DNA of 35,129 nucleotides from assembly GCA_020832135.1 (NCBI GenBank), contig JAFIFG010000078.1, forward strand, positions 1 to 35,129, written 5' to 3'. Shown here piece by piece: positions 8,360-23,717 of this stretch. Below the pieces are notes generated by a model. It did no database searches. It worked only from the letters and a program-made list of their open reading frames with translations, and was not told where the DNA came from. Numbering within the stretch: the stretch's first letter is position 1; each line of letters opens with the position of its first letter. The stretch is from Clostridiaceae bacterium (lineage in GTDB: Bacteria > Bacillota > Clostridia > Peptostreptococcales > Natronincolaceae). The translations under genes and the position numbers were made by a program.

Positions 8360-10765
8360 TTATATGTTTAAACCACCAAATTCTAGGAATATCTTTTCTC
8401 CTAAATCTCGTTCTAACTCTCTATAGATATTTAAGGCTTCTTCCTTTGACTTCTCAGGTGCAGTGCATTTTGGTAGGTAGAGCATAAATTCACTTCCTTG
8501 CCCCTCTATGCTTTTCACCTCTAACTTACCCTCCATCAATTCAGCTAGCTTTTTTACTAAAGATAAACCTATCCCAGTACCCTCATGAGGTCGCCTACTA
8601 GAGTGATCCGCCATATAAAATCGATCAAATATTTTATCTAATTCTTTTTCAGGTATACCTATACCACTATCCTTTACCCCTACTTTTACGTATTTTTTTT
8701 CCTCTGCTACATATACTTCTATTGTACCTTGGTGCTTAGTAAATTTAATAGCATTAGATAGCAGATTAAATAGTATTCTTTCATATTTTTCAATATCTAC
8801 TCCGATAACTTCAGTTTTGCAATTGTCATCAAATATAATTCCTATATTTTTCTTATTGCCTATAGGTAATATAGAATCCACCATTGACTTGGTATACTCC
8901 TTTATATTTATATTGTCCAAATTCAAAGACATAAAACCAGCTTCAGCTTTAGTAATATCTAAGAAGTTGTTTACTAGCCTCAATAGCCTTTGAGAATTTT
9001 TTTCTATCTTTCCAACAAATTTTTTTGTTCTATCGTTAAACTCATCTTTATAATATTCACTAAGTAACATCTGTGCTACAGAGTTAATGACGGCAATCGG
9101 TGATCTTAGTTCATGGGAAACGGTTGTGAAATACTCCTCCTTTGACTTAGTTAAAGCCTCCATATCTTTTTGTAACTGAATCTGTGGTGTTATATCCATT
9201 CCTACTATAATAATATTGATTTTTTTATTACTATATTTAAGGGGAGTATGTATTGTCTGATAATGTTTTATTTCACCGTCTGAAGTTTTAAGGGATACAG
9301 TCTTTGTTTTAGGAATAAGATTATTAAGATCTATCTCCTCTTCTGCAAGATATATATATTCTGATGGTATAATTTCATAAATAGATTTTCCTATAACACT
9401 GCCACGGGTCACTTCAGTTCTTAGTATTTTTGATAGTATTTGTAAGTACTGAGTATTTACATATTTATATTTATGATCTGGATAACTAATGACCGTCACT
9501 GGTGCCCCTAGAGCATCGATTACATTATTTATAAATTCATTTTGATAGTTAATTTTCACCTCTTGCTCTTTTGTCTTTGTAATATCATGAATACTTATTA
9601 CTACATAATCTACTTCACCATCTTCATTGAATACAGGGTTGCCTCTTAATTCTATAAAATGTTTTTTCCCATTGCTTTTAACTATAAAAACTTCTTTTTT
9701 TATCCTTTTACCTTCAAATAACTTTTGAAGTAAGTATTTTTTTATATCAACAATTGTTCCATCTTCTTTAGAGATCTTATAATTATTTATACTTTTATGA
9801 CAATTAAAATCACACGGTTTATCTTCTTTACAACATCCTATTATACAGGGAAATAAATTATGATGATTACATGAACTTCCTACAATACACTCTCCTTCAG
9901 CATTAATAACACATACACCATCAGAAATGGTTTCTATAATAGTATTCAATTGTGTTACTTTATTTCTATAGGCATCTGTCATTTCTTCTAGTTGTACATA
10001 GTTAGTAATATCATCAATAATTTCTACTGATAAATTTCTATCTGATTCATCCTTATAAAGAATGGCATTCACATGTATATAATTTTTTTCTCCATTACCA
10101 TCATGTTCTTCTAAACTTACTTGAAAGTCTTTGACAAACTTCCCGTCAAAGATGGATAGTATAGGATCTTCATCTCTACTGATTCTTTTGCCATCACTAT
10201 CATAGACCTTGAAATTATTATATACATCATCTAATGTGAAAATTTTTTGTTCCTTCATAAGTTCCTTTGCAGATTTATTAAATAACACATATCTTCCTTT
10301 TTCATCCATGATTAGAACTCTTTCTTTTGTATGATCTAATATAAAGTTCAAAAGCTTTGTCTGATCTTCATATAATTTGTTTTGTAAGTCTAACTTGTGG
10401 TTCAGATCCTCTATTTCTTTGAGGTATTGGTTTTGTGCTAATTCCTTTTGAATGGCTTTGACAGCCATAGTAACCAGGGTTTTTATTACTTTATTACATT
10501 GATCTGCCACTAATTCAATATTTAATAAGTAAGTAATATTCTCGTCTTTATCTGTTATGGGAATGACTTCTTTTATGACGTTTTTAGAAAATCCCTGTAG
10601 GTGGATATCTTCTGTGAAATTGCTAGTTTCATAGATTAAGCATCCTTTTTTATCTAATAAACATATGCTATACTTTGATATTTTCTCATCATTGATACCT
10701 TCTACAATGATGTTAAGATACTCCTTTATGAGCTTTAAATTGTGCACATTGTCACTTAGTGTCAC
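8360..10765 (-). CDS. Soluble multi-PAS sensor histidine kinase with a cysteine cluster
   Basis: The 801-residue kinase has no membrane segments. It has an N-terminal sensor-like region (1-110), a coiled coil (about 110-135), and three PAS domains (about 140-260, 275-400, 410-530). The transmitter has VSHELRSP with phospho-acceptor His551, NLLSNAIKFT (N box), DSGIGIP and GTGIGLS (ATP lid). PAS2 contains eight cysteines between 285 and 322 (C285, C293, C299, C307, C311, C312, C318, C322), inserted after the first PAS strands; such spacing could hold an Fe-S cluster or zinc. No response regulator is adjacent. The GTG start has AGGAGG seven bases upstream. A 35-residue charged tail follows the ATPase domain. 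Confidence 0.88.
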   Translation of the reverse strand: MTLSDNVHNLKLIKEYLNIIVEGINDEKISKYSICLLDKKGCLIYETSNFTEDIHLQGFSKNVIKEVIPITDKDENITYLLNIELVADQCNKVIKTLVTMAVKAIQKELAQNQYLKEIEDLNHKLDLQNKLYEDQTKLLNFILDHTKERVLIMDEKGRYVLFNKSAKELMKEQKIFTLDDVYNNFKVYDSDGKRISRDEDPILSIFDGKFVKDFQVSLEEHDGNGEKNYIHVNAILYKDESDRNLSVEIIDDITNYVQLEEMTDAYRNKVTQLNTIIETISDGVCVINAEGECIVGSSCNHHNLFPCIIGCCKEDKPCDFNCHKSINNYKISKEDGTIVDIKKYLLQKLFEGKRIKKEVFIVKSNGKKHFIELRGNPVFNEDGEVDYVVISIHDITKTKEQEVKINYQNEFINNVIDALGAPVTVISYPDHKYKYVNTQYLQILSKILRTEVTRGSVIGKSIYEIIPSEYIYLAEEEIDLNNLIPKTKTVSLKTSDGEIKHYQTIHTPLKYSNKKINIIIVGMDITPQIQLQKDMEALTKSKEEYFTTVSHELRSPIAVINSVAQMLLSEYYKDEFNDRTKKFVGKIEKNSQRLLRLVNNFLDITKAEAGFMSLNLDNINIKEYTKSMVDSILPIGNKKNIGIIFDDNCKTEVIGVDIEKYERILFNLLSNAIKFTKHQGTIEVYVAEEKKYVKVGVKDSGIGIPEKELDKIFDRFYMADHSSRRPHEGTGIGLSLVKKLAELMEGKLEVKSIEGQGSEFMLYLPKCTAPEKSKEEALNIYRELERDLGEKIFLEFGGLNI

Positions 10766-11310: not shown

Positions 11311-11694
11311 TTATTTATTTTCTGCTTCTGCTAAGGCTTCTGTTATAGCTTCAATTAAAGCATTACTGGTTGCTGTTGCCTGTGTTACAGCATCTAATTC
11401 TTCTGCTTCTTGTTTTTCTAATAATTGCTCTTCTATACCTTCAAAAGCACCATCTGAAATACCTGGTGATTCATCATGGGAAAGTACATTAAGTTCAGTA
11501 ATTTTCCCCTCTTCAATTACCACTTCTATCTCTACATCGCCATTAAAACCTTGAGATGTTGCTGTATAAGCTCCATCTTGATATCTAGCCTCTGTGTCTG
11601 CAGCTGCATCTGCTGGTGCATCTGTACCACATGCTGTTAATGTTAACATACCTGCAGCTAATAAACCTATAGCAACTTTTTTATTAATTTTCAT
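11311..11694 (-). CDS. FMN-binding-domain lipoprotein
   Basis: The 127-residue protein has a lipoprotein signal peptide: KKVAIGLLAAGMLTLTAC, with Cys22 as the lipidation site. A short acidic Ala-rich linker is followed by a single FMN_bind domain (about 38-125). The flavin attachment region is DAVTQATATS at 101-110, in which Thr107 aligns with the Thr that carries FMN in proteins modified by ApbE; the preceding canonical Gly is Gln105. It should sit on the outer face of the membrane and carry electrons if flavinylated. An ApbE gene lies 2.7 kb away. It is a single-gene unit with its own promoter and terminator. Confidence 0.85.
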   Translation of the reverse strand: MKINKKVAIGLLAAGMLTLTACGTDAPADAAADTEARYQDGAYTATSQGFNGDVEIEVVIEEGKITELNVLSHDESPGISDGAFEGIEEQLLEKQEAEELDAVTQATATSNALIEAITEALAEAENK

Positions 11695-11749
11695 TATAAG
11701 TTTCCTCCCTTTACTCTTCTGTGAATATACTAATTAATATTCATTCTTT

Positions 11750-11778
11750 ATTATACAGTATTTTATTTTAGAATACAA
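11750..11778 (-). promoter_or_regulatory. Promoter of the FMN-binding lipoprotein gene
   Basis: Minus strand: TTGTAT (11778-11773), 17 bases, perfect TATAAT (11755-11750). The start codon is 56 bases downstream, with a strong GGGAGG ribosome site. Confidence 0.55.
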
Positions 11779-11826
11779 TATTTCTAGTGATAAAGTAATA
11801 TTTTGAATTTTTTTACTCCTAAAACA

Positions 11827-11850
11827 AAAACCCTCCTATAAGAGGGTTTT
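11827..11850 (-). terminator. Terminator of the L,D-transpeptidase gene
   Basis: AAAACCCTC pairs with GAGGGTTTT around six bases. On the minus strand the stem runs into TTTTTGTTTT. Confidence 0.8.
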
Positions 11851-11864
11851 CATCATTATATCTT

Positions 11865-12707
11865 TTAAGGATCTCTAATATCTAGATATTGTTGTCTAGC
11901 CAATTGCAATTCTTCATAGGTGTCTACTCCTACAGTCCCATCTACAGCTAAATTAAAATCTCTTTGAAAGTCTCGAACTGCTTCTGCTAGTTCCTCATCA
12001 TAAATACCATCTATTTCTCCATCGTAATAGCCTAATTCTACTAGGGTGGTTGTAATATCAAACACATCAGGACCTGGTTCTACTCCTACCGATAAGACTC
12101 TCCCTGTAAACACTTCACCAGTAATCTTTACTGGAGTTCCGAGAGGAACGATATCATATAATTCGTTGACATCTTCATTAAACATTCTAATACAACCATT
12201 ACTAGCAGCAGTTCCTATGGATTCAGGAGCATTGGTACCATGTATTCCATACCCACCCCATGGAACATTAATCCTCATCCATCGAGTACCAAAGGGGCCT
12301 CCTGGATTTGTAGTCTTTTGTATAATTTGCCAATCTCCTACTGGTGTAGGTGTAGTAGGTCTACCTACAGCCACAGGATAGGTTCTTATTGTTTCTGTGA
12401 AACGCTTTAATGTTAATACTTTTCTGTCTAAATCTATTTCTATACTATATCCTTCCTCTGGCATAGGGTAACGCCTCTCTGGATCTAATCCCAAGGCATT
12501 CCATGTATCTGGTCCCACAATACCATCAGGGTTTAAACCAAAATCTGCTTGAAATTCCCTAACATTCTGATGAACATCTTCATTATATATACCATCTATC
12601 TCTCCATCATAAAATCCATAGAAGGTTAACCGCTCCTGCACATGCATTACATCTGGACCTTCCATATAAGGGTCTAACAGTCTTAAATATCTGCTGGCCA
12701 TCCTCAC
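11865..12707 (-). CDS. L,D-transpeptidase (YkuD) flanked by two peptidoglycan-binding domains
   Basis: The roughly 280-residue protein has a PG_binding_1 domain (about 13-75; VQERLTFYGFYDGEIDGIY...VREFQ), a YkuD catalytic domain (about 85-200) with HGT and SNGCIRM carrying the catalytic His and Cys, and a second PG_binding_1 domain (about 215-270; LVELGYYDGEIDGIYDEE). It would make 3-3 cross-links or attach proteins in peptidoglycan. No signal peptide is visible, which is odd for a wall enzyme but occurs in some spore-related YkuD proteins. I chose GTG 12707, eight bases after GGAGG; an ATG at 12701 is possible, and a GTG nine bases upstream overlaps the ribosome site. Confidence 0.88.
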   Translation of the reverse strand: MRMASRYLRLLDPYMEGPDVMHVQERLTFYGFYDGEIDGIYNEDVHQNVREFQADFGLNPDGIVGPDTWNALGLDPERRYPMPEEGYSIEIDLDRKVLTLKRFTETIRTYPVAVGRPTTPTPVGDWQIIQKTTNPGGPFGTRWMRINVPWGGYGIHGTNAPESIGTAASNGCIRMFNEDVNELYDIVPLGTPVKITGEVFTGRVLSVGVEPGPDVFDITTTLVELGYYDGEIDGIYDEELAEAVRDFQRDFNLAVDGTVGVDTYEELQLARQQYLDIRDP

Positions 12708-12751
12708 ACACTTCACCTCCTTACTCTATCATACGTAAAACCTTTATAAAG

Positions 12752-12780
12752 TTGACAATAGAATAAACTCTATGTAGAAA
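12752..12780 (+). promoter_or_regulatory. Promoter of the GNAT gene at 12870
   Basis: A perfect TTGACA (12752-12757) is followed after 17 bases by TAGAAA (12775-12780), a 4/6 match to the -10 consensus. A leader hairpin AGCTTTTT/AAAAAGCT (12791-12813) lies between it and the gene. Confidence 0.5.
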
Positions 12781-12869
12781 TAAACTTATGAGCTTTTTTC
12801 TGAATAAAAAGCTTTCTTCTTTGTTAGTCTATCTATAGAAGATTAATTTAGCAGGGAGGAATATACTTT

Positions 12870-13334
12870 ATGAAGTTTCGCTTAGCAGATCAGGGGGATA
12901 TCGACTTTTTTATAGAGGATTATTTGGATCGTTATGGTTCTGATGAAACCTTGGCAGAAAAATATGCTATTGCCTGTACCAAGCTACATAGAAGTATTTT
13001 ATTATACTCTGATGATAAAATCATAGGAGCTATTACATGGTCTGTGAAGGAGGGAACTAAATCAGGATTGGTGGAAATATTTCAAATGACGATCCCAAAC
13101 AAAGAAAATCGTGGTAAAGGCTATGGCGCTACGATGTTAAAGGAATGTTTAGAGGATATTGAGAATTATTATATAGAAAGGTCATTTGTTTTAAGAAGAG
13201 TTTTTATCGTTATTGATGAAGAAAATTTAGCTGGAAGAAATGTCTATAAAAATTATAGCTTCGATATTATTGCTGAAATAAACAGTCACCTAAAACCCCA
13301 ACGCAAATCCTTGATTTATGCAAAGAATTACTGA
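12870..13334 (+). CDS. GNAT-family N-acetyltransferase
   Basis: The 154-residue protein starts MKFRLADQGDIDFFIEDYL and has the GNAT core: a beta-strand LVEIFQMTI, motif A NRGKGYGATMLKEC (R-G-x-G-x-G/A type, about 87-100), and motif B with EENLAGRNVYKNYSFDII. The ATG has GGGAGGA about nine bases upstream. The substrate is unknown. It is transcribed away from the L,D-transpeptidase gene and converges on the tandem FMN lipoprotein gene; there is no clear functional link. Confidence 0.85.
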   Translation: MKFRLADQGDIDFFIEDYLDRYGSDETLAEKYAIACTKLHRSILLYSDDKIIGAITWSVKEGTKSGLVEIFQMTIPNKENRGKGYGATMLKECLEDIENYYIERSFVLRRVFIVIDEENLAGRNVYKNYSFDIIAEINSHLKPQRKSLIYAKNY

Positions 13335-13342
13335 AACTAAAA

Positions 13343-13375
13343 CAGCACCTCTCGATCATAATGTGAGAGGTGCTG
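13343..13375. terminator. Bidirectional terminator
   Basis: CAGCACCTCTC pairs with GAGAGGTGCTG (11 bp) around an 11-base loop, between the convergent GNAT and FMN lipoprotein genes. T-rich sequence follows only loosely. Confidence 0.75.
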
Positions 13376-13394
13376 CTATAATATTTATTAATTA

Positions 13395-14147
13395 TTATCT
13401 TCTTGCATTTTCTAAAGCATCTTCAACTGCTTCCATCCACCCAGTACTTGAGCTAGTAGCTCCAGTAAAGATTTCAACGTCAGTTCCATTTGCCTCTACA
13501 AATCTAGCTGGCATTGCTTCTACAGCTTCATGCCATGTATCGAATCCATAATCTTCGTCCTTGAAGTTCTCTTCACCATCAGGGATAGTTGTTTCTGTTA
13601 ACTCAACTTCTATGATTGTATCATTTTCAATAGTTACTCTTGCAAACTTAGTTCCTCTTTCACCTACTTCAGAGGCACCGAAGAATACACCATCAAAGTA
13701 TTCATTAGTAGATGCAGGCTCAACTAATGCTTTTTCCAGAGCTCTTTCTACAGCTTGTTGCCATTTAGTTGTAGAGCTTGTAGCATTTGTAACTACTTCT
13801 ACAGCTGTTCCATTAGCTTCAACAAATCTTTCTGGTAATACATCCTTAGCTTCATGATATGCTTCATAACTATAATCTTCAGGCTTTGGATTGTTCATAG
13901 CTTGGAATTCTTCTAATTCAACATTTACAATAACATCATTTTCGATTGTGATTGTAGCCATATTGTAACCTCTTGTATTAGCATCAGATACAGCTGTGTA
14001 TGTACCGTCATTGTATTTGTTAGTAGTTCCCTCGACAGATGTTTCTACCTCTGCTGGTTCTTCATCTGGTGTAGCAGCTGGACTTGAGCATCCAATAAGA
14101 GATATAATCATTACCATTGCTAAAAGCAACATTAAAACTTTTTTCAT
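13395..14147 (-). CDS. Lipoprotein with two tandem FMN-binding domains
   Basis: The 250-residue protein has a lipoprotein signal (MKKVLMLLLAMVMIISLIGC, lipid Cys20), an acidic linker, and two homologous FMN_bind repeats at about 48-140 and 150-248. Each repeat has a D/F-G-(T/V)-Y/F start, ATITIEND or ARVTIENDTI, RFVEANGT and the attachment loop. The loop is TNATSS at 120-125 in repeat 1 and TGATSS at 228-233 in repeat 2. Only repeat 2 has the canonical Gly before Ala-Thr; the acceptor would be Thr231, and Thr123 in repeat 1 is uncertain. It should be membrane-anchored outside the cell. A divergent ApbE flavin transferase gene starts 277 bases away. Confidence 0.87.
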   Translation of the reverse strand: MKKVLMLLLAMVMIISLIGCSSPAATPDEEPAEVETSVEGTTNKYNDGTYTAVSDANTRGYNMATITIENDVIVNVELEEFQAMNNPKPEDYSYEAYHEAKDVLPERFVEANGTAVEVVTNATSSTTKWQQAVERALEKALVEPASTNEYFDGVFFGASEVGERGTKFARVTIENDTIIEVELTETTIPDGEENFKDEDYGFDTWHEAVEAMPARFVEANGTDVEIFTGATSSSTGWMEAVEDALENARR

Positions 14148-14194
14148 TTTTATTTCCTCCTCTGATACAAATAAGTATTTGTTGGTACAAGTTA

Positions 14195-14223
14195 ATTATA
14201 TAACAAACGAAATTAATTTTCAA
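14195..14223 (-). promoter_or_regulatory. Promoter of the tandem FMN lipoprotein gene
   Basis: Minus strand: TTGAAA (14223-14218), 17 bases, perfect TATAAT (14200-14195). Copies of TATTTGTT(G/A)GTA at 14176-14187 and 14241-14252 bracket it, one just past the start site and one upstream, and could be operator half-sites. Confidence 0.65.
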
Positions 14224-14363
14224 TATTATTTTTTATTAATTATTTGTTAGTATTTTTTTACAAATACAAAGTAGTGCTCATTACTTAAAAATAGCTATTT
14301 TCCATAAACAATTACACTTCAATACTTTCAAGATAGTCTAGCATATCTTTCCTATCTGTTTAC

Positions 14364-14392
14364 TTTACATTTTATCAAGCACTTGCTATAAT
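14364..14392 (+). promoter_or_regulatory. Promoter of the apbE-like gene
   Basis: TTTACA (14364-14369), 17 bases, perfect TATAAT (14387-14392), with the extended TGC directly before the -10. Transcription would start about 25 bases before the TTG start codon. Confidence 0.7.
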
Positions 14393-14424
14393 AAATTGAA
14401 ACTGAAAGTGAGGTGTTTACTGAG

Positions 14425-15516
14425 TTGACTACTATGATTAACAACAAATGGAAAGTTTTAATACTGTTCATTATCTTATCATTATTCATGTCGGCATGTA
14501 CTCCTAAGGAGAAAGACCTCGAAGAGGGAGAACCTGAATTAATAAGGGAACGACAAAGTGTTTTAGGTGGTACAATCGGACAAATTCATGGCTATAGCGT
14601 CTCTCCTGATGAAGGAAAAAATGCTATAACAAAGGCATACCAACGTATCAACACTATAGAAAATACCATGAGTGTTGTTATTGAAGGTAGTGATATCTAT
14701 AAAGTGAATGCAAATGCAGGTAAAGGAGCCGTTGGGGTTACAGATGAGACACTCCAAGTTATTAAAGATGGTATCTATTATTATGAACTTACAGATGGTG
14801 TCTTTAATATAGGCATGGGTACTTTGATAGACCTATGGGGTATAAGTATACAGAGTAGTGAGCAGTCTCAAAGAGTACCTACTCCAAAAGAAATTGAATT
14901 TGCCATGCAGCATATGGATTTAAGTAACTTAGAGATCAATGGTAACAAAGTATTTTTAAAGGATGCTAATATGTCCATAGACTTAGGAGGTATAGCTAAA
15001 GGCTATGCAGTAGATGAAGCTGCAAGGGTATTAAAGGATCATGGGATAAAAAGTGGATTTGTTAATTTAGGTGGAGATATTTATGTCCTAGGTCCTAAAC
15101 CAGATGGAAGCCACTGGAAAATGGGAATTGAAAATCCTCTTAAAAATTCTGAAACACCCTCTAATCATGTTATAGCAGGAATTTCTCTTATTAACAAAGC
15201 TATTGTGACATCAGGAGATTATGAAAGAACACTTGAGGGAACAGATCAACATTTTCATCATATTTTGGACCCAGAAACCGGTTATCCTACAAAAAATGAA
15301 TTAACTAGTACTACGATTATAGCAAATACCGCCATAAGTGCGGATGTTTTGTCTACAGCTGTATTTGTTATGGGGCTTGAAAAAGGCTTTAATTTCATTG
15401 AAGAGTTAACAGATGTTGAAGGTATCTTTATTACTAAGAACAAAGAAGTATATATAACATCAGGTATTAAAGATGAAGTAGAGATCTTGGACTCCTCCTT
15501 CAAAGTAGTTAATTAA
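14425..15516 (+). CDS. apbE: ApbE-family FAD:protein FMN transferase, lipoprotein
   Basis: The enzyme transfers FMN from FAD to a Thr of FMN_bind domains outside the membrane. The roughly 363-residue protein has a lipoprotein signal (WKVLILFIILSLFMSAC, lipid Cys about 25) and ApbE signatures: GTLIDLWGI, SIDLGGIAKGYAVDEA, NLGGDIYVLG, HHILDPETGYP and the metal-site region SADVLSTAVFVMG. I chose TTG 14425, nine bases after GAGGTG. The GTG 12 bases upstream overlaps that ribosome site, and the ATG nine bases downstream is too far from it. It is divergent from the tandem FMN_bind lipoprotein gene, its likely substrate, and 2.7 kb from a second one. Confidence 0.9.
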   Translation: MTTMINNKWKVLILFIILSLFMSACTPKEKDLEEGEPELIRERQSVLGGTIGQIHGYSVSPDEGKNAITKAYQRINTIENTMSVVIEGSDIYKVNANAGKGAVGVTDETLQVIKDGIYYYELTDGVFNIGMGTLIDLWGISIQSSEQSQRVPTPKEIEFAMQHMDLSNLEINGNKVFLKDANMSIDLGGIAKGYAVDEAARVLKDHGIKSGFVNLGGDIYVLGPKPDGSHWKMGIENPLKNSETPSNHVIAGISLINKAIVTSGDYERTLEGTDQHFHHILDPETGYPTKNELTSTTIIANTAISADVLSTAVFVMGLEKGFNFIEELTDVEGIFITKNKEVYITSGIKDEVEILDSSFKVVN

Positions 15517-16470: not shown

Positions 16471-16490
16471 TAGCCCCAGATTAGGGGCTA
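16471..16490 (-). terminator. Terminator of the cphB-cphA operon
   Basis: TAGCCCC pairs with GGGGCTA around six bases; the cphA stop codon is in the loop region. On the minus strand TTATTTTTAG follows. Confidence 0.75.
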
Positions 16491-19135
16491 ATACTCGCAA
16501 TTTTCACACTTATATCTGATGCTTGTATATCCTGACACTTGCTTTTAAAGACTTCTATAGCTTTTACTAGAGGATAATAGTCCTCATAAAATACAATGAT
16601 TATATCCCCATCTTCAGCATTCTCCATAGCTTTTTGAAGGGCGGTTATTTCGCATAGCTCTATCTCCATATTACTGTCGCTTAGTCCCCCCATGCTACAT
16701 CCCTTCTTTATAATACCCGCTACTTCTCCTTTTTTTCTACCTCTTAGATCCTTATCTTCTTTTATATAAGCATAATCAAAGAATTTTCCTGATGTCTCTC
16801 CAATCTTTAATATGCTAATATCCGTTCTATCTCCAGGAATTCCTATTACACCTACTAATTTATTGGTTTTTATTTTGTTGAGTCCCTCTAGTACTTTATT
16901 GTAGCCGTCAATATTATGACCATAATCAATGATTACTTTAAAGTCCTTTACATCAAACACATTAAACCTTCCAGGATTGCTTATGGTGTCTGTATGGAAA
17001 TGACTTAATGCATGATGTATTGTTTTTACTTCTATACCATAAGAGTGGGCTCCAGCTATTGCTGCCATGCTATTTTCTATATTATGCTCTAAAACACCAC
17101 CAAAGGTTGCTGGTATTTCATTTGATTTTATAACCGGTATTTCATTATCTCCATCAAATATATAAATGGTATTTTCTTTTAAATATACTGCCTTTCCTCC
17201 TGTTGCTATATGTTTCTTTAAAATTTCATTGAATTTATCTTTTGAAAAATAAATAATATTACATGTTACTCTTTCAGCTATTCTTGAAACATAAGCATCC
17301 TCTGCATTAAGAATAGCATAGCCATCTTCTTTTATAGCTTCTACTATTAAAGCCTTTACATCTGCCATTTCCTCTAGGGTATTTATACCATCTATTCCTA
17401 AATGATCATTGCCTATGTTGGTTATAATGCCTACATCTGCTAAATCATAGGCTAATCCTTTATTTACAATACCGCCTCTGGCGGTTTCCAGCACTGCTAC
17501 TTCTACTCTTTTATCCATAAGGACAGTTTGAGCACTTTTAGGTCCTGTTGTATCTCCCTTTCTAATCTCTTCATTGTCAATATAAACACCACCAGTACTG
17601 GTCATGCCCACCACCATTCCCTGCTCTTGAAATATCTTTGCCAACATTCTTGTAGTGGTTGTTTTACCATTAGTACCGGTTATTGATAGTATTGGTATAG
17701 AGTGATTTGTACCCTCTGGAAACATTTGATCAACAATAGCCTTTGCTACATTCCTACTTTTTCCTTCTGAGGGGTAATGGTGCATTCTTATTCCAGGGCA
17801 AGCATTTACTTCTATAATACTCCCCTCATTTTCAAAAATAGATTTTCCTATATCTTCTGTCGTAATATCTACACCCGCTACATCTAATCCAATAGCTCTA
17901 GTAGCATTAATGGCTAGCTTTGCATTATCAGGGTGAATGGAATCCGTCACATCTATGGCAATACCGCCCGTACTTAAGTTATCATTTTCTCTTAAATAAA
18001 TTTTTTCCCCATCCTGTGGTATATCCTCTAGACCTAGTCCCTTCTTTTTTAAAATTAAACTCATGACATCATCAATTTTAATCTTGGTTAATGGTTTTTC
18101 ATGACCTTCTCCTCTGAGTGGATTTTTATTTTCAATATCTACTAATTCTTTGATTGTATTTTTGCCATTACCTATAACATGTGCAGCTATTCTTTCGGAG
18201 ACCGCCACCACTTTTTCTCCTATTACTGCAACACGGTAATGTTTTCCTGCTATATACTGTTCTACTAATACACGTTGACTAAATTTTTTAGCAATAAAAA
18301 ATGCCTTTCGTGCTTCCCTAAGATTGGTTATAGACAGAGATACACCCTTGCCTTGGTTCCCATCGTAGGGTTTGATAGCAACGGGAAAACCTAATTCTTT
18401 TATTATATTTTTTGCTTCTTCATAATGCTCTGCAACACTTCCTTCAGGTACTGGTATAGCATGTAATCTTAAAATCTCATTTGTTAATTCTTTATCTCCT
18501 GCAGTATCTACTGCTATACAGTTAGTTCCATCAGTGATAGTAGCCTGTACCCTTCTGGCATATTTACCATAGCCCAGTTGTAACAAGCTGTCCTTGCCGA
18601 TTCGCATCACTGGTATTTTTCTTTTTTTAGCCTCTTCTAAAATTGCAGCTGTACTTTGTCCTAACTCTTCAGCTGCCATTTGTTCTTTTATATTGTTTAA
18701 TCGTTCTTCTAAATCTATAGTTTCATGATCTAATAGAGCTTTTATTATATCAAAAGCTAATTCACCAGCTTTAAGCCCAGCTATCTTATTATGATATCTA
18801 TATATAATGTAATAAATGGAATCCCCTTTTAGATACCTAGCCTTCCCAAAGGTAATATTAAAACCCAGTAATTTTTGTAATTCTAAAGTGATATGTTCTA
18901 GCACATGTGCTAAATAGGTTCCTCTTTGGAGTCTTTTGACAAATCCTCCTTTAGTACCTATACTACATTTATGATCTTGTAATCCTGGTAGGAGAGATTG
19001 CAAGCCTTCATTAAACCCTTCTATATCGCATGTCGGTATATCTACATATTTCCCTATATCTACATCTATTCTTATAATAGGAAAATGGGCATATATATTT
19101 CTGTTTGGATATACCCTAGTATTTAACAAATTCAT
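16481..19135 (-). CDS. cphA: Cyanophycin synthetase
   Basis: CphA polymerises Asp and Arg, using ATP, into cyanophycin, a cytoplasmic nitrogen store with a poly-Asp backbone and Arg side groups. The 884-residue length and order match the family: an N-terminal domain (about 1-160), an ATP-grasp domain (about 225-450; VAIKPYDGNQGKGVS, IEVNACPGIRMHHYPSEG) that adds Asp, and a Mur-ligase-like domain (about 480-880; P-loop GTNGKTT at 487-493, NIGNDHLGIDG, VIIDYGHN) that adds Arg. The start overlaps the end of cphB by four bases (ATGA), so the two are translationally coupled. Both active domains look intact. Confidence 0.95.
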   Translation of the reverse strand: MNLLNTRVYPNRNIYAHFPIIRIDVDIGKYVDIPTCDIEGFNEGLQSLLPGLQDHKCSIGTKGGFVKRLQRGTYLAHVLEHITLELQKLLGFNITFGKARYLKGDSIYYIIYRYHNKIAGLKAGELAFDIIKALLDHETIDLEERLNNIKEQMAAEELGQSTAAILEEAKKRKIPVMRIGKDSLLQLGYGKYARRVQATITDGTNCIAVDTAGDKELTNEILRLHAIPVPEGSVAEHYEEAKNIIKELGFPVAIKPYDGNQGKGVSLSITNLREARKAFFIAKKFSQRVLVEQYIAGKHYRVAVIGEKVVAVSERIAAHVIGNGKNTIKELVDIENKNPLRGEGHEKPLTKIKIDDVMSLILKKKGLGLEDIPQDGEKIYLRENDNLSTGGIAIDVTDSIHPDNAKLAINATRAIGLDVAGVDITTEDIGKSIFENEGSIIEVNACPGIRMHHYPSEGKSRNVAKAIVDQMFPEGTNHSIPILSITGTNGKTTTTRMLAKIFQEQGMVVGMTSTGGVYIDNEEIRKGDTTGPKSAQTVLMDKRVEVAVLETARGGIVNKGLAYDLADVGIITNIGNDHLGIDGINTLEEMADVKALIVEAIKEDGYAILNAEDAYVSRIAERVTCNIIYFSKDKFNEILKKHIATGGKAVYLKENTIYIFDGDNEIPVIKSNEIPATFGGVLEHNIENSMAAIAGAHSYGIEVKTIHHALSHFHTDTISNPGRFNVFDVKDFKVIIDYGHNIDGYNKVLEGLNKIKTNKLVGVIGIPGDRTDISILKIGETSGKFFDYAYIKEDKDLRGRKKGEVAGIIKKGCSMGGLSDSNMEIELCEITALQKAMENAEDGDIIIVFYEDYYPLVKAIEVFKSKCQDIQASDISVKIASISP

Positions 19136-19974
19136 CTATGGTCCTCCTCTGTTTCCTTTGTATTGACATCATCGATGATAGCTTTTCTATTGACTAAATT
19201 ATATCTATATCCCTTAGGCAAAATATGAACATTAACATTAGTTATAGCTAATGGTTCATCTGGATACTGCTCTGAAATATTGGTATACTTTATATTTTTA
19301 CCATCTACAATAGTAATTACTCCCGAGCCCACTACTTGGATCTCATTACTAGTATCCACTACAATAGCGGTATCTTCATCTATCCCAATACCTAACGTAT
19401 AGGGATTTTGAGCTACAGCACCTAGCAATCTACCGATTCTTCCTCTTTGGTTAAAATGCTGATCAATAATAACTTCTTTTAAAAACCCCATACCTGGTGC
19501 CATACTCACAGTACATTTTCTGGGGGCATCCTCATCATCCCCCTCCACCACCATTACTTCACTCATCATAGATGCTCCTGCACTTGTACCCGCTATAATC
19601 AATCTATCCTCTAAGTGTTTTTGTATATAATGATGAAATTCTGTACCTCCTAATATACTGGAAATTCTTAATTGATCTCCACCTACAAAAAAAACACAAT
19701 CTATATCATCTAAGCTTCTAAGTAATTGTTTTTGATTAGCTTCTTTCCTACTGGCAATGTTTATGGTATCTACTTTACTTACTCCTAAGTCGTAGAATAT
19801 TCTTTTATACTCTTCCCCTACCTCTAAAGGATAATTGGTAGCAGTTGTAATTACTGCGATCTTTGTTTTTTCTCCACCGGATAAATGAACTACTTCCTTT
19901 AAAATTTTTTTATCAGCTCTTTTATCTTCTCCTCCGCCTATAATAATCAAACGTATATTCTCTTCCTTTGCCAT
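19132..19974 (-). CDS. cphB: Cyanophycinase
   Basis: CphB is a serine-type exopeptidase that releases beta-Asp-Arg dipeptides from cyanophycin. The 280-residue protein shows the peptidase S51-like signatures: IIGGGEDKR near the N terminus, FFVGGDQLR (about 95-103), the nucleophile elbow GTSAGAS with Ser131, and DQHFNQRGR followed by GIGIDEDTA. The start ATG has AAGGAG seven bases upstream. It is the first gene of a two-gene operon with cphA, an arrangement common in cyanophycin producers. No isoaspartyl dipeptidase gene is nearby, so the dipeptide must be split by an enzyme encoded elsewhere. Confidence 0.93.
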   Translation of the reverse strand: MAKEENIRLIIIGGGEDKRADKKILKEVVHLSGGEKTKIAVITTATNYPLEVGEEYKRIFYDLGVSKVDTINIASRKEANQKQLLRSLDDIDCVFFVGGDQLRISSILGGTEFHHYIQKHLEDRLIIAGTSAGASMMSEVMVVEGDDEDAPRKCTVSMAPGMGFLKEVIIDQHFNQRGRIGRLLGAVAQNPYTLGIGIDEDTAIVVDTSNEIQVVGSGVITIVDGKNIKYTNISEQYPDEPLAITNVNVHILPKGYRYNLVNRKAIIDDVNTKETEEDHR

Positions 19975-20040: not shown

Positions 20041-20102
20041 CTTTATTAATATTCACAGCAATTTTTGTAATTTTTTTCTATATTTTCTAGGCAATAAAAA
20101 AA

Positions 20103-20123
20103 GAACCTAGAAAATCTAGGCTC
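20103..20123 (-). terminator. Terminator of the Na/phosphate cotransporter gene
   Basis: A nine-pair stem with one G-T pair (GAGCCTAGA/TCTAGGTTC on the minus strand) and a three-base loop is followed by TTTTTTTATT. Confidence 0.85.
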
Positions 20124-20137
20124 CTACTTTGTTACTA

Positions 20138-21748
20138 TTACTTAGTTTTTACTTTGTCTAGTACAGCCATGGCTATATTAGAAGCATGGTCAGCAATTCT
20201 CTCTAAATTACTAATAATATCTAAAAATACTACCCCTGAAGCAGGCATGCATTGTTGATTGTTTAAACGGCCTATGTGGTTCGCCCTTAAGGTTTTCTCC
20301 ATAAGATCCACCTGTCCCTCAGCTTCTATCACCTTCATGGCCAAGCTGGCATCTAGATTTCTTAAAGCTGTCAAAGCATCCTTATAGGCTTTTAATGTCG
20401 TATCAGAGATTTCTTTTAACTCCTCCATCGCCGTATCAGAAAATTCCAGTTTATTATCTATTTTGTATATAGCTAATTCTGCTATATTCTCTGCATGATC
20501 TCCAACTCTTTCTATATCGTTTATGGTATCGAATAATCCACTGACAATATCTCGATTTCCCATAGAAAGGTTTGTATTAGACAACTTAACTAAATAACCA
20601 GCTAGTTCTCTTTCCAACTCATTTACGGTTTTTTCTAATTTAAAGGTTTCATTAACCTTTTTTTGGCTTCCAGTTTCAAAAGCTTCTATAGCACTTTCTA
20701 AAGATTCCCTTGCAACATTTCCCATGTGTAATGTTTCTTTAATGGTATTAACTGTAGCAATAGCAGGAGTTTCTAAAATACGATTATCTATATATTTAAT
20801 TCCTTGAACAACTTCTTCTTCACCTGGGACCATCTTCTTAGCTATATTAACTAATATTCCCGCAAAAGGAAGCATTATCAAAGTAGTGGTTATATTAAAT
20901 ATTGTATGGGCATTTGCTATTTGTCTAGAAATATCTTGAGGATCTAAATAAGTAATGATTCTATAAGTTATTCCTTGGAAAACAAATATAAATATAATCG
21001 TCCCTACAAGGTTAAAAATTAAGTGGAATGCCGCAGCTCGCTTTGCTGTAGTATTAGCCCCTATACTAGATAGCATGGCTGTCACAGTGGTCCCTATATT
21101 AATACCAAACAAAACAGGTAGTCCAGAAGATATAGGAATAAGCCCCTCCATTGCAAGTGCCAGCACAATACTGGTGGAGGCAGTACTACTTTGTACTGCT
21201 ACGGTAATAACAAATCCTGCTAGAATACCAAGCAAAGGTGTTTCTCCAAAGCTTACAATCATTTCTCTAAAGGCTTCCAATTCCCTTAAGGGCCTCAAGG
21301 CATCCCCCATAAAGCGCATACCAATAAATAATATCCCGAAGCCTATAAAGGCCTCTGCCAATTGTTTGATTTTCCGATCTTTACTAAATAACCAAATAGC
21401 TACCGAGATCCCTACTATAATAGGAGCATACTTATCTATTTTAAAACTGATGATTTGGGCAGTAATGGTTGTCCCTATATTGGCTCCCATAATAACACCA
21501 ACTGCTTGCGTTAGTTTCATCATTCCTGCATTAACGAAACCAACCACCATAACAGTGGAGGCACTACTACTTTGTACGATTGCTGTAACAACAGCCCCCA
21601 CTACAACTGCCATATATCTATTACTGGTTAACATCCCTATGATGGACTTCAGCTTATCTCCTGCCGCCTTCTGAAGTCCAGTACTCATCACATGCATTCC
21701 ATATAAAAACAGACCTAATCCTCCTAATAAACCAAATAAGATTTCCAT
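20138..21748 (-). CDS. Na+/phosphate cotransporter with C-terminal PhoU-like domain (NptA/YjbB type)
   Basis: The 536-residue protein has an N-terminal membrane domain (about 1-310) made of two inverted Na_Pi_cotrans repeats. Each carries the QSS signature: VTAIVQSSSAST near residue 60 and VAVQSSTASTS near residue 185. The cytoplasmic part (about 330-535) is a PhoU-like helical bundle with two repeats (NDIERVGDHAENIAE and SNLERIADHASNIAM, each E-R-x-x-D-H-A). It moves phosphate with sodium; direction in bacteria may be uptake or efflux. The start ATG has GGGAGG upstream. A PHO-box-like array 90 bases upstream suggests induction by PhoP under phosphate limitation, which favours uptake. Confidence 0.92.
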   Translation of the reverse strand: MEILFGLLGGLGLFLYGMHVMSTGLQKAAGDKLKSIIGMLTSNRYMAVVVGAVVTAIVQSSSASTVMVVGFVNAGMMKLTQAVGVIMGANIGTTITAQIISFKIDKYAPIIVGISVAIWLFSKDRKIKQLAEAFIGFGILFIGMRFMGDALRPLRELEAFREMIVSFGETPLLGILAGFVITVAVQSSTASTSIVLALAMEGLIPISSGLPVLFGINIGTTVTAMLSSIGANTTAKRAAAFHLIFNLVGTIIFIFVFQGITYRIITYLDPQDISRQIANAHTIFNITTTLIMLPFAGILVNIAKKMVPGEEEVVQGIKYIDNRILETPAIATVNTIKETLHMGNVARESLESAIEAFETGSQKKVNETFKLEKTVNELERELAGYLVKLSNTNLSMGNRDIVSGLFDTINDIERVGDHAENIAELAIYKIDNKLEFSDTAMEELKEISDTTLKAYKDALTALRNLDASLAMKVIEAEGQVDLMEKTLRANHIGRLNNQQCMPASGVVFLDIISNLERIADHASNIAMAVLDKVKTK

Positions 21749-21820
21749 CTAAATCCTCCCTTTTTTTCCTTTGCAAGTTAAGTATTCCCCATAGTTTATC
21801 TTCTACACACATTTATTAAT

Positions 21821-21903
21821 AATATACCTAATCTATTAACTATGTGTTAAATAAATGTTAAATCTATGTTAAATATTTTAACCTGAATTTAACGAAATCT
21901 TAA
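21821..21903 (-). promoter_or_regulatory. PHO-box-like array and -10 upstream of the phosphate cotransporter gene
   Basis: On the minus strand, seven TTAANA-type hexamers begin every 11 bp except for one 9-bp step. In plus coordinates they occupy 21834-21839, 21845-21850, 21856-21861, 21867-21872, 21876-21881, 21887-21892 and 21898-21903. The three central copies are TTAACA, the Bacillus PhoP half-site, and the spacing equals the known six-base repeat plus five-base gap. A -10 box TATATT is at 21826-21821, with no good -35 box; the array covers that position, as at PhoP-activated promoters. Confidence 0.75.
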
Positions 21904-21925
21904 ATGTTTTATTAGTTTATAGTTA

Positions 21926-22648
21926 TTAATTGATAGCTTTCGCTTCTTCAATTTCCTTTGCTGTGTCTATAGCTTTCTTAGCTAGAATAGTTAAAGGATC
22001 AATGACAGGTAAATTTATATACTCCGATGTCATCACTAGACCAATTTCTGTGCAACCTGCCACCACTGCTTCTATGCCCTGACTCTTCATAGTTTCAACA
22101 GCACTCACTAGCTTTTTAATAGCATGAGATGAAGTGTTTCCTGACTTTATACCACCAACACCATAGATAGTATCCATAACCATCTCTTGCATCTCCTTAT
22201 TAGGTAGAATAATCTCTTTTCCCTTCATGGCATGTTGAAAAAGTTGCATTTTAATGGTGCCAGTTGTAGCTAAGATGCCTAGCTTTTCTATAGAGGGATA
22301 GGTTTTTTCAACATACTTATTGGTTTCTTCTAATGCATTTATAATGGGTATGGCAATATTTTTTTGTATTTCATCAATAAAGTAATGAGCCGTTATACAG
22401 GGCATAATGATAAAATCTACTCCCGCAATCTCTAAGTTTTTAGCTGTTTCCACCATTTCATTTATAGGACTCACGCCTTTATACAATATTGATTTTGTAC
22501 GGTCAGGAATTTTAGAATTACTATCTATGATCACTCTAATATGATCTTTGTCATCTTCTACATCAGTTAATTTAATAATTCTCCTAAAAATTTCACAGGT
22601 AGCTTCTGGTCCCATACCTCCCAAAATACCTATTACCTTCTCCCTCAT
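21926..22648 (-). CDS. Aspartate/glutamate racemase family protein
   Basis: The 240-residue cytoplasmic protein starts with VIGILGGMGPEAT, typical of aspartate racemases, and keeps both catalytic cysteines: Cys84 in MPCITAHY and Cys199 in VVAGCTEIGL. In the first motif Ile replaces the usual Asn after Cys. It should be a PLP-independent racemase, most likely making D-aspartate or D-glutamate. I chose ATG 22648, nine bases after AGGAGG; the TTG 18 bases upstream lies inside that ribosome site. It is upstream of the phosphate cotransporter gene on the same strand. The PHO-box array lies in the gap, so they are probably separate units. Confidence 0.87.
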   Translation of the reverse strand: MREKVIGILGGMGPEATCEIFRRIIKLTDVEDDKDHIRVIIDSNSKIPDRTKSILYKGVSPINEMVETAKNLEIAGVDFIIMPCITAHYFIDEIQKNIAIPIINALEETNKYVEKTYPSIEKLGILATTGTIKMQLFQHAMKGKEIILPNKEMQEMVMDTIYGVGGIKSGNTSSHAIKKLVSAVETMKSQGIEAVVAGCTEIGLVMTSEYINLPVIDPLTILAKKAIDTAKEIEEAKAIN

Positions 22649-22840
22649 CCTACTACTCCTCCTCAATAAATATACTTTTATTCATTGCTCATGATAATAT
22701 TCTACATTTAAATTTTTATCCCTTCGTAATATTTACAGAATAGTATATAATTTTTTGATTTTTCATTCATAAGATTTTTATAAAGAAGATATACACAATT
22801 TTTATATTTTATGGTATTCTAAATAGGAAGTTTTGCCTAT

Positions 22841-23315: not shown

Positions 23316-23717
23316 GTGGAAACAAAAAAAGATTATAATAATTATCCAGTAAAAGAGGACCATAAGCATCCATCAATGCCGATGCCACCAGGTCATGCAC
23401 CTGCTATGCCGATGCCAAGCGGAATGCCAGGGATGACACCTGCTATGCCAGGAATGCCGGGAATGATGCCAGGGATGACACCCGCTATGCCAGGAATGCC
23501 GGGAATGATGCCAGGGATGCCTATTGAAATGCCAGGGATGATGCCAGGAATGCCTATGGAGGGTCATGATATGTATGAACATATGAAGAGAACTTATTAT
23601 ATGCATATGTATATGGCCTATATGAACAAAGCAGAAGCTTATAAACATAAAATGATGTATTATGAGCATCATCATCATCATCAACATCATCATTATGATG
23701 ACTATGATCACTGTTAA
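23316..23717 (+). CDS. Met-Pro-Gly repeat protein with His-rich tail, function unknown
   Basis: The 133-residue protein has 30 Met and 16 His. A polar N terminus (1-20) leads to a PGM/PAM-repeat region (21-82), with two exact copies of GMTPAMPGMPGMMP at 39-52 and 53-66. A Tyr/Met helix-like segment (86-116) follows, then a tail of HHHHHQHHHYDDYDHC. There is no signal peptide. The GTG start has AGGGGG seven bases upstream. Dense Met and His motifs suggest binding of soft metals such as copper, but spore-coat proteins can also be rich in Gly, His, Met and Tyr. I do not recognise a family. A CopZ-like cysteine protein is encoded 460 bases away on the other strand. Confidence 0.75.
   Translation: METKKDYNNYPVKEDHKHPSMPMPPGHAPAMPMPSGMPGMTPAMPGMPGMMPGMTPAMPGMPGMMPGMPIEMPGMMPGMPMEGHDMYEHMKRTYYMHMYMAYMNKAEAYKHKMMYYEHHHHHQHHHYDDYDHC
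23430..23513 (+). repeat. Two 42-bp tandem repeats inside the Met-rich gene
   Basis: The units 23430-23471 and 23472-23513 differ by one silent base (ACACCT versus ACACCC). They encode the duplicated 14-residue block. The high identity suggests recent slippage or recombination, and repeat number may vary between strains. Confidence 0.85.

Follow-up and report, generated by a model that had tools for sequence, protein, structure and literature searches.

The array of TTAACA-like hexamers that precedes the nptA-type gene in the window (the whole stretch of 35,129 nucleotides analysed here) is probably, at roughly 85%, the operator and promoter through which PhoP controls nptA as part of the Pho regulon, as judged from sequence comparisons. 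The array is a forward PHO box lying back-to-back with an inverted one, and not a run of seven hexamers in the same direction with a 9-bp slip. A PhoPR-dependent nptA is already known in Staphylococcus aureus; what is new here is the inverted, gene-specific extension of the box.

Architecture of the nptA upstream region

In Bacillus subtilis the core sites of PhoP are TTAACA-like hexamers 11 bp apart, usually four in number. An earlier note had described the array as seven TTAANA hexamers pointing towards the gene. Direct reading bore out its coordinates, strand and spacing and the presence of three exact TTAACA copies. TTAA hexamers start on the minus strand at 21903, 21892, 21881, 21872, 21861, 21850 and 21839, in steps of 11, 11, 9, 11, 11 and 11 bp, and six of the seven fit TTAANA, the exception being TTAAAT at 21892. 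The common direction of the repeats did not hold. Scored in the forward direction with a hexamer matrix, which was built from 32 pstS hexamers only, the upstream three fit poorly (2.1, -0.7 and 2.1), whereas on the other strand TTAACC scores 9.4 and TTAACG 4.1, with the third (TTAAAT) still at -0.7. Moreover, counting the upstream hexamers on the opposite strand turns the 9-bp step into one of 11, so that all steps are 11 bp.

The forward PHO box spans 21834-21872 (minus strand) and comprises TTAACA at 21872-21867, 21861-21856 and 21850-21845 and a weaker TTAATA at 21839-21834, in 11-bp steps. The inverted PHO box spans 21878-21905 (plus strand), with TTAACC at 21878-21883, TTAACG at 21889-21894 and a poor TTAAAT at 21900-21905, also in 11-bp steps. 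The junction of the two boxes reads GGTTAA-N5-TTAACA on the minus strand.

TTAACA-like hexamers at 11-bp repeats exceed chance upstream of nptA. The four-hexamer array starting at 21872 scored 28.6. Shuffling the whole window 60 times gave at best 21.9 (mean 7.0), and shuffling only the 300 bp upstream of the gene 300 times gave no score above 10.2. A bare hexamer-pair pattern gave 3 matches in the whole window where 1.15 were expected, which was not significant (12 of 100 shuffles reached 3). Two plain patterns were discarded as unspecific in the genome: three TTAANA units with at most one mismatch (23 matches, 17 with the reversed control) and three TTAAC units with at most two (34 and 26). 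The eight matches to the latter with no or one mismatch were three at nptA, four on contig C29 (28 kb of 4.0 Mb) and one on contig C49.

A probable PHO box in the place of the -35 element

The forward box is predicted to be a PHO-box promoter of the ordinary kind and is very probably genuine. It sits in the -35 place, and a -10 element, TATTAT (21819-21824, minus strand), begins 26 bp downstream of position 21850, where the third TTAACA starts; an alternative -10, TATATT (21826-21821, minus strand), overlaps it. At all 11 nptA orthologs that carry the inverted box, a TAnnnT is found at 48 or 59 bp downstream of the first forward hexamer, so that its distance from the third or fourth is 26 bp.

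The promoters of pstS in the same and neighbouring families resemble that of nptA in hexamer and register. A search for PstS gave 15 loci, and the nine closest, being those that could be placed by their gene starts, share the distance as well: in 9/9 exactly 26 bp separate the start of the last hexamer from that of the best -10. The earlier suggestion that the array covers the -35 position of a promoter with a -10 box only is in keeping with this geometry. As for the other six loci, the best -10 lies at 25 bp in L184, at 18 bp in L190 (with 26 bp second) and at other distances in L188 and L189, where the arrays are weaker; L191, the second pst locus of the genome under study, and L192 are without an array. 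The pstS arrays comprise 3 to 8 hexamers, and since those of two relatives hold 6 (L180) and 8 (L181), the nptA array can be called unusually long, as it had been, only in a relative sense. Unlike nptA, none of the 15 pstS loci has a perfect inverted hexamer 11 bp upstream; one (L183) has TTAACT there.

The nptA site is also like the B. subtilis PhoP sites in its hexamer, its 11-bp repeat, its place over the -35 region and its -10 without a -35. However, it is unlike them in that an inverted box abuts the forward one in an unbroken 11-bp register with no divergent gene. At tagAB/tagDEF of B. subtilis, PhoP acts in an intergenic control region that separates two divergent operons, whereas at nptA no divergent gene accompanies the inverted box.

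Distribution of the array

Eighteen nptA upstream regions of family f1, the family of the genome under study, were examined (17 loci, L036-L052, own included, and L240); genome G013, with a partial nptA match, and G018, in which only the short paralog matched, were left out. The forward four-hexamer array scored above all 300 shuffles in 15 of the 18, the exceptions being L045 (irregular), L052 and L240. The 200-bp nptA upstream sequence of G012 is identical to that of Natronincola peptidivorans, and those of G017, G002, G008 and G007 are identical to those of Alkaliphilus species. When 13 genomes of the family were searched for PhoP, only G011 was without a close one (best 50% identity), the other 11 relatives having matches of 69-82%. 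G011 also has no PstC over the cut-off and no nptA array (L240). PhoP, PstS and nptA are all present in G004, but the array is absent (L052).

Outside the family the array is patchy. It was found at none of 12 nptA genes of families f4 and f6 (L053-L062, L064, L065), despite the presence of PhoP and PstS in the members searched (G022, G024), and it is present at the nptA locus L063 of family f7. Four of 19 nptA loci picked from other families scored above all shuffles (L241, L242, L248, L250), and several further ones keep only TTAACAYAGATTTAACA or a sequence close to it. We rejected the possibility that nptA stands in for an absent Pst system, since 18 of 20 family genomes have a PstC above the cut-off, even though PstS gave no match in 6 of 13.

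An S. aureus-labelled record without annotation from a plasmid collection (L261), which is not proven to contain the nptA of published work, carries TGTTAA-N5-TTTACC-N5-TTAACA-N5-TTTACA followed by TATAAA 26 bp on (26 by eye). It differs from the window in having one inverted hexamer only, and as a single case it has a chance of about 0.0025, taken from a background of 37 in 14750 positions.

A predicted Pho regulon within the genome

A genome scan with a PhoP matrix, proposed in the earlier note, placed pst, a phoP-like gene and the nptA site together at the top. The sequence-only model used was made from eight pstS promoters, including that of the genome itself and leaving nptA out, and was run over the 4.0-Mb genome. 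The five best matches were pstS (43.0 bits, in the training set), a phnD-like gene (22.1), a phnF-like gene (21.2), an orphan phoP-like gene (15.7) and nptA (15.0), ranks 2 to 4 all being phosphate or phosphonate genes by family matches. The phnF-like gene is of the GntR type, its match to the PhnF model falling below that model's cut-off. For nptA, at rank 5, the E value of 0.096 is marginal and the next match, at 14.0, is 1 bit lower, with 150 of 1672 candidates scored. Under the hexamer matrix the scores were 33.2 for pstS, 29.4 for phnD-like, 28.6 for nptA, 26.9 for phoP-like and 21.7 for phnF-like, the last not above the best window shuffle (21.9). The top four loci of the scan are all on contig C29, clustered with pstSCAB-phoU and phn genes. 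Thus one motif is common to pst, other Pho genes and, at a marginal E value, nptA in a single genome. No box above a score of 12 was found at a short second Na/Pi gene, without a PhoU domain, on contig C26.

PhoPR is present: by best match, the genome encodes two PhoP-like regulators and a PhoR-like kinase. The PhoP-like paralogs, on C29 (L034, 7951-8640) and contig C117 (L223, 3024-5482), are 75% identical. The former is an orphan beside pst and phn with its own PHO box, and the latter adjoins the best PhoR match of the genome, the C117 pair having no box above a hexamer-matrix score of 12. Matches to the PhoB model (C29 protein) and the PhoR model fall below the curated cut-offs, so the PhoP and PhoR assignments are by best match.

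PHO-box-like arrays were also seen before two genes flanking the orphan phoP-like gene, one for a methyl-accepting chemotaxis protein (L034, 7905-7931, minus strand, score 17.0) and one for an EAL-domain phosphodiesterase (L034, about 9010-9060, plus strand, score 9.3); both scores are below that of the best window shuffle. If real, these arrays would place chemotaxis and c-di-GMP under phosphate control.

Another OmpR-family regulator could own the nptA site, its TTAACA units being merely PHO-box-like. The genome has nine regulators that match PhoP at E 1e-50 or better, the two PhoP-like ones included. Moreover, several distant families share the core TTAACAYAGATTTAACA at nptA down to its spacer, unlike the spacers at pstS, and a TAGAT spacer that is common at nptA is absent from the pstS sites compared. 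However, a matrix made from pstS alone detects the site, which shares the 11-bp register and the 26-bp distance to the -10 with the closest pstS promoters, and the array is missing in the one of 13 family genomes that lacks a close PhoP. Furthermore, expression of both pst and nptA in S. aureus was PhoPR-dependent in the medium used (PMC13170248). We therefore regard a different regulator as quite improbable and retain PhoP.

Within the family the inverted half was seen only at nptA

Within family f1, a perfect inverted TTAACA or TTAACC lies exactly 11 bp upstream of the forward box in 11 of the 15 anchored orthologs, the others being L041, L042, L047 and L051; in the background such a hexamer occurs at 37 of 14750 upstream-region positions. 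Read forward at the 9-bp step, no ortholog scores above 2.1 apart from L049 and L050, which have a forward TTAACA 20 bp upstream. The exact back-to-back pattern GTTAA-N5-TTAAC-N6-TTAAC, allowing no mismatch, had 16 matches in 20 family genomes, 16/16 at nptA, and none with the reversed control, though looser copies at other sites would be missed by it. The matches come from 11 genomes in 8 genera, and since these are related the counts are not independent. A form of the pattern with TG matched four of 398 genomes of the phylum (reversed control, 1). Besides the nptA described here, these matches lay beside purF-like, transposase-like and pectate-lyase-like genes (named by eye) and were taken as chance. 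Searches of the open-licence literature found no report of an inverted-plus-forward arrangement, nor of such an operator of the PhoB/PhoP family without a divergent gene.

The reading we favour, at about even odds, is that the inverted half provides extra PhoP binding. It could instead form a two-way promoter, driving a second PhoP-dependent transcript of the upstream gene or antisense over its end. Taken by itself the inverted box looks like a PHO box, and in some nptA orthologs (L043, L046, L048) it comprises three inverted hexamers. On its far side six of the 11 orthologs (L036-L040, L046) have a TATTAT or TATAGT at a distance of 40 or 42 bp from its first hexamer, and the mean best -10 score there is 3.49 against 3.76 on the nptA side (11 orthologs), a profile that by itself gives no separation. 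However, these -10-like boxes are not at 26 bp, are missing in five of the 11, and in L037-L040 the far-side TATTAT overlaps a forward TATAAT. The nearest long upstream frame varies (racemase, cation-transporter-like, rubredoxin-like or acpP, by eye), and 10 of the 11 genomes that have the inverted box show it in tandem with nptA, which makes control of a divergent gene unlikely. Among the four anchored genomes without the inverted box, the neighbour is tandem in one and divergent in three. The nptA site of the window is no divergent two-gene PhoP promoter, the racemase gene upstream (21926-22666, above the cut-off of the cysteate racemase CuyB model) being on the same strand as nptA. An antisense transcript from the inverted box may be less easily dismissed than divergent gene control, but a two-way promoter of either sort appears unlikely.

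A very improbable alternative is that the palindrome acts as an RNA or DNA hairpin, as a terminator of the upstream gene or a leader element, and not as a protein site. Across the 11 orthologs, 117 of 132 hexamer columns and 38 of 55 spacer columns are pairable (G-T counted). However, no terminator-like site was found in 21600-22800, and outgroup nptA loci keep the forward hexamers without the inverted half. Moreover, the palindrome lies upstream of the -10 and is thus outside the nptA leader made from that promoter.

A recurring GTAG...TGRTATAATA was noticed by eye about 165-180 bp upstream of nptA in L037-L041, a single sub-clade. It looks like a second forward promoter, whose transcript would cross the PhoP sites.

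The nptA product and its neighbourhood

The nptA-type gene (20138-21748, minus strand) encodes 536 aa with two Na_Pi_cotrans stretches and C-terminal PhoU domains (Pfam PF02690, E 2.3e-70; PF01895, E 2.5e-36) and exceeds the cut-off of NCBIfam TIGR00704 (258.8 bits, cut-off 210.1). Directly 3' of it, at 20101-20125 (minus strand), is an intrinsic-terminator-like hairpin, one being found where shuffles gave 0.1. The hairpin is present in the centroid fold, although the 166-nt region taken as a whole does not exceed shuffles in stability (z -0.48). It separates nptA from the cyanophycinase and cyanophycin synthetase genes downstream (16481-19974), so that nptA is probably the only gene served by the PHO box; its cotranscription with the cyanophycin genes was rejected. 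By eye, 14 of 17 family loci have a cyanophycinase-like frame after nptA.

Elsewhere in the window, positions 23316-23717 encode a small protein with many MPGM repeats and a histidine cluster, and similar Met/Pro/Gly-rich frames were seen by eye upstream of nptA in L042, L044, L045, L047, L048, L051 and L052. At 11311-15516, lipoproteins with FMN-binding-type repeats lie beside an ApbE-like frame (by eye), a set that resembles genes of flavin-based electron transfer.

Uptake of phosphate with sodium is the most likely function of the product. Uptake is favoured because of the regulation, the box type being common to pst and phn genes, and because of kinship to the NptA of Firmicutes. In pairwise BLAST of 13 proteins, the window protein was 36-42% identical to three Firmicute NptA-type proteins (321-420 bits), among them an Alkalihalophilus one (42%) and the NptA-like protein of the unannotated S. 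aureus-labelled record (36%), against 25% to Escherichia coli YjbB (168 bits). An exporter of the YjbB kind, induced for a reason other than uptake, has in its favour that the two proteins share general size and domain type, that YjbB is annotated as a putative phosphate export protein, and that both are above the TIGR00704 cut-off. However, the nearer kinship to Firmicute NptA and the box type shared with the pst and phn uptake genes argue against it, and we consider export improbable. In the S. aureus study, YjbB is reported to be insufficient for import in E. coli (PMC13170248). The study also describes an S. aureus NptA that, like the window protein, ends in a PhoU domain, which acts on the system, and that is PhoPR-dependent like pst (PMC13170248).

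Discussion

By analogy with PhoB/PhoP proteins, phosphorylated PhoP would, at low phosphate, occupy the forward box where a -35 element would otherwise lie and recruit RNA polymerase to the -10 at 21824-21819. The two good inverted sites directly upstream, in the same 11-bp register, may well enlarge the PhoP assembly and give a stronger or more sensitive switch, though this is a guess. The product probably also acts back on the signal through its PhoU domain, as has been reported for NptA of S. aureus.

A more specific proposal, which we advance tentatively and think rather doubtful, is a symmetric PhoP operator dedicated to nptA, in which one to three good inverted and three or four forward hexamers hold a back-to-back complex and give nptA a response unlike that of pst. 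If true, examples of such a response would be a sharper threshold, an antisense transcript confined to starved cells, and activation of its own promoter coupled with repression of one upstream.

Taken together, the array would place nptA, the gene of a widespread PhoU-tailed transporter, in the Pho regulon of Natronincola/Alkaliphilus-type Clostridia with the pst and phosphonate genes, and this company favours uptake over export. A back-to-back operator at only one gene in a family would also offer a test case for how a direct-repeat regulator behaves on two arrays that point away from one another on a shared helical register.
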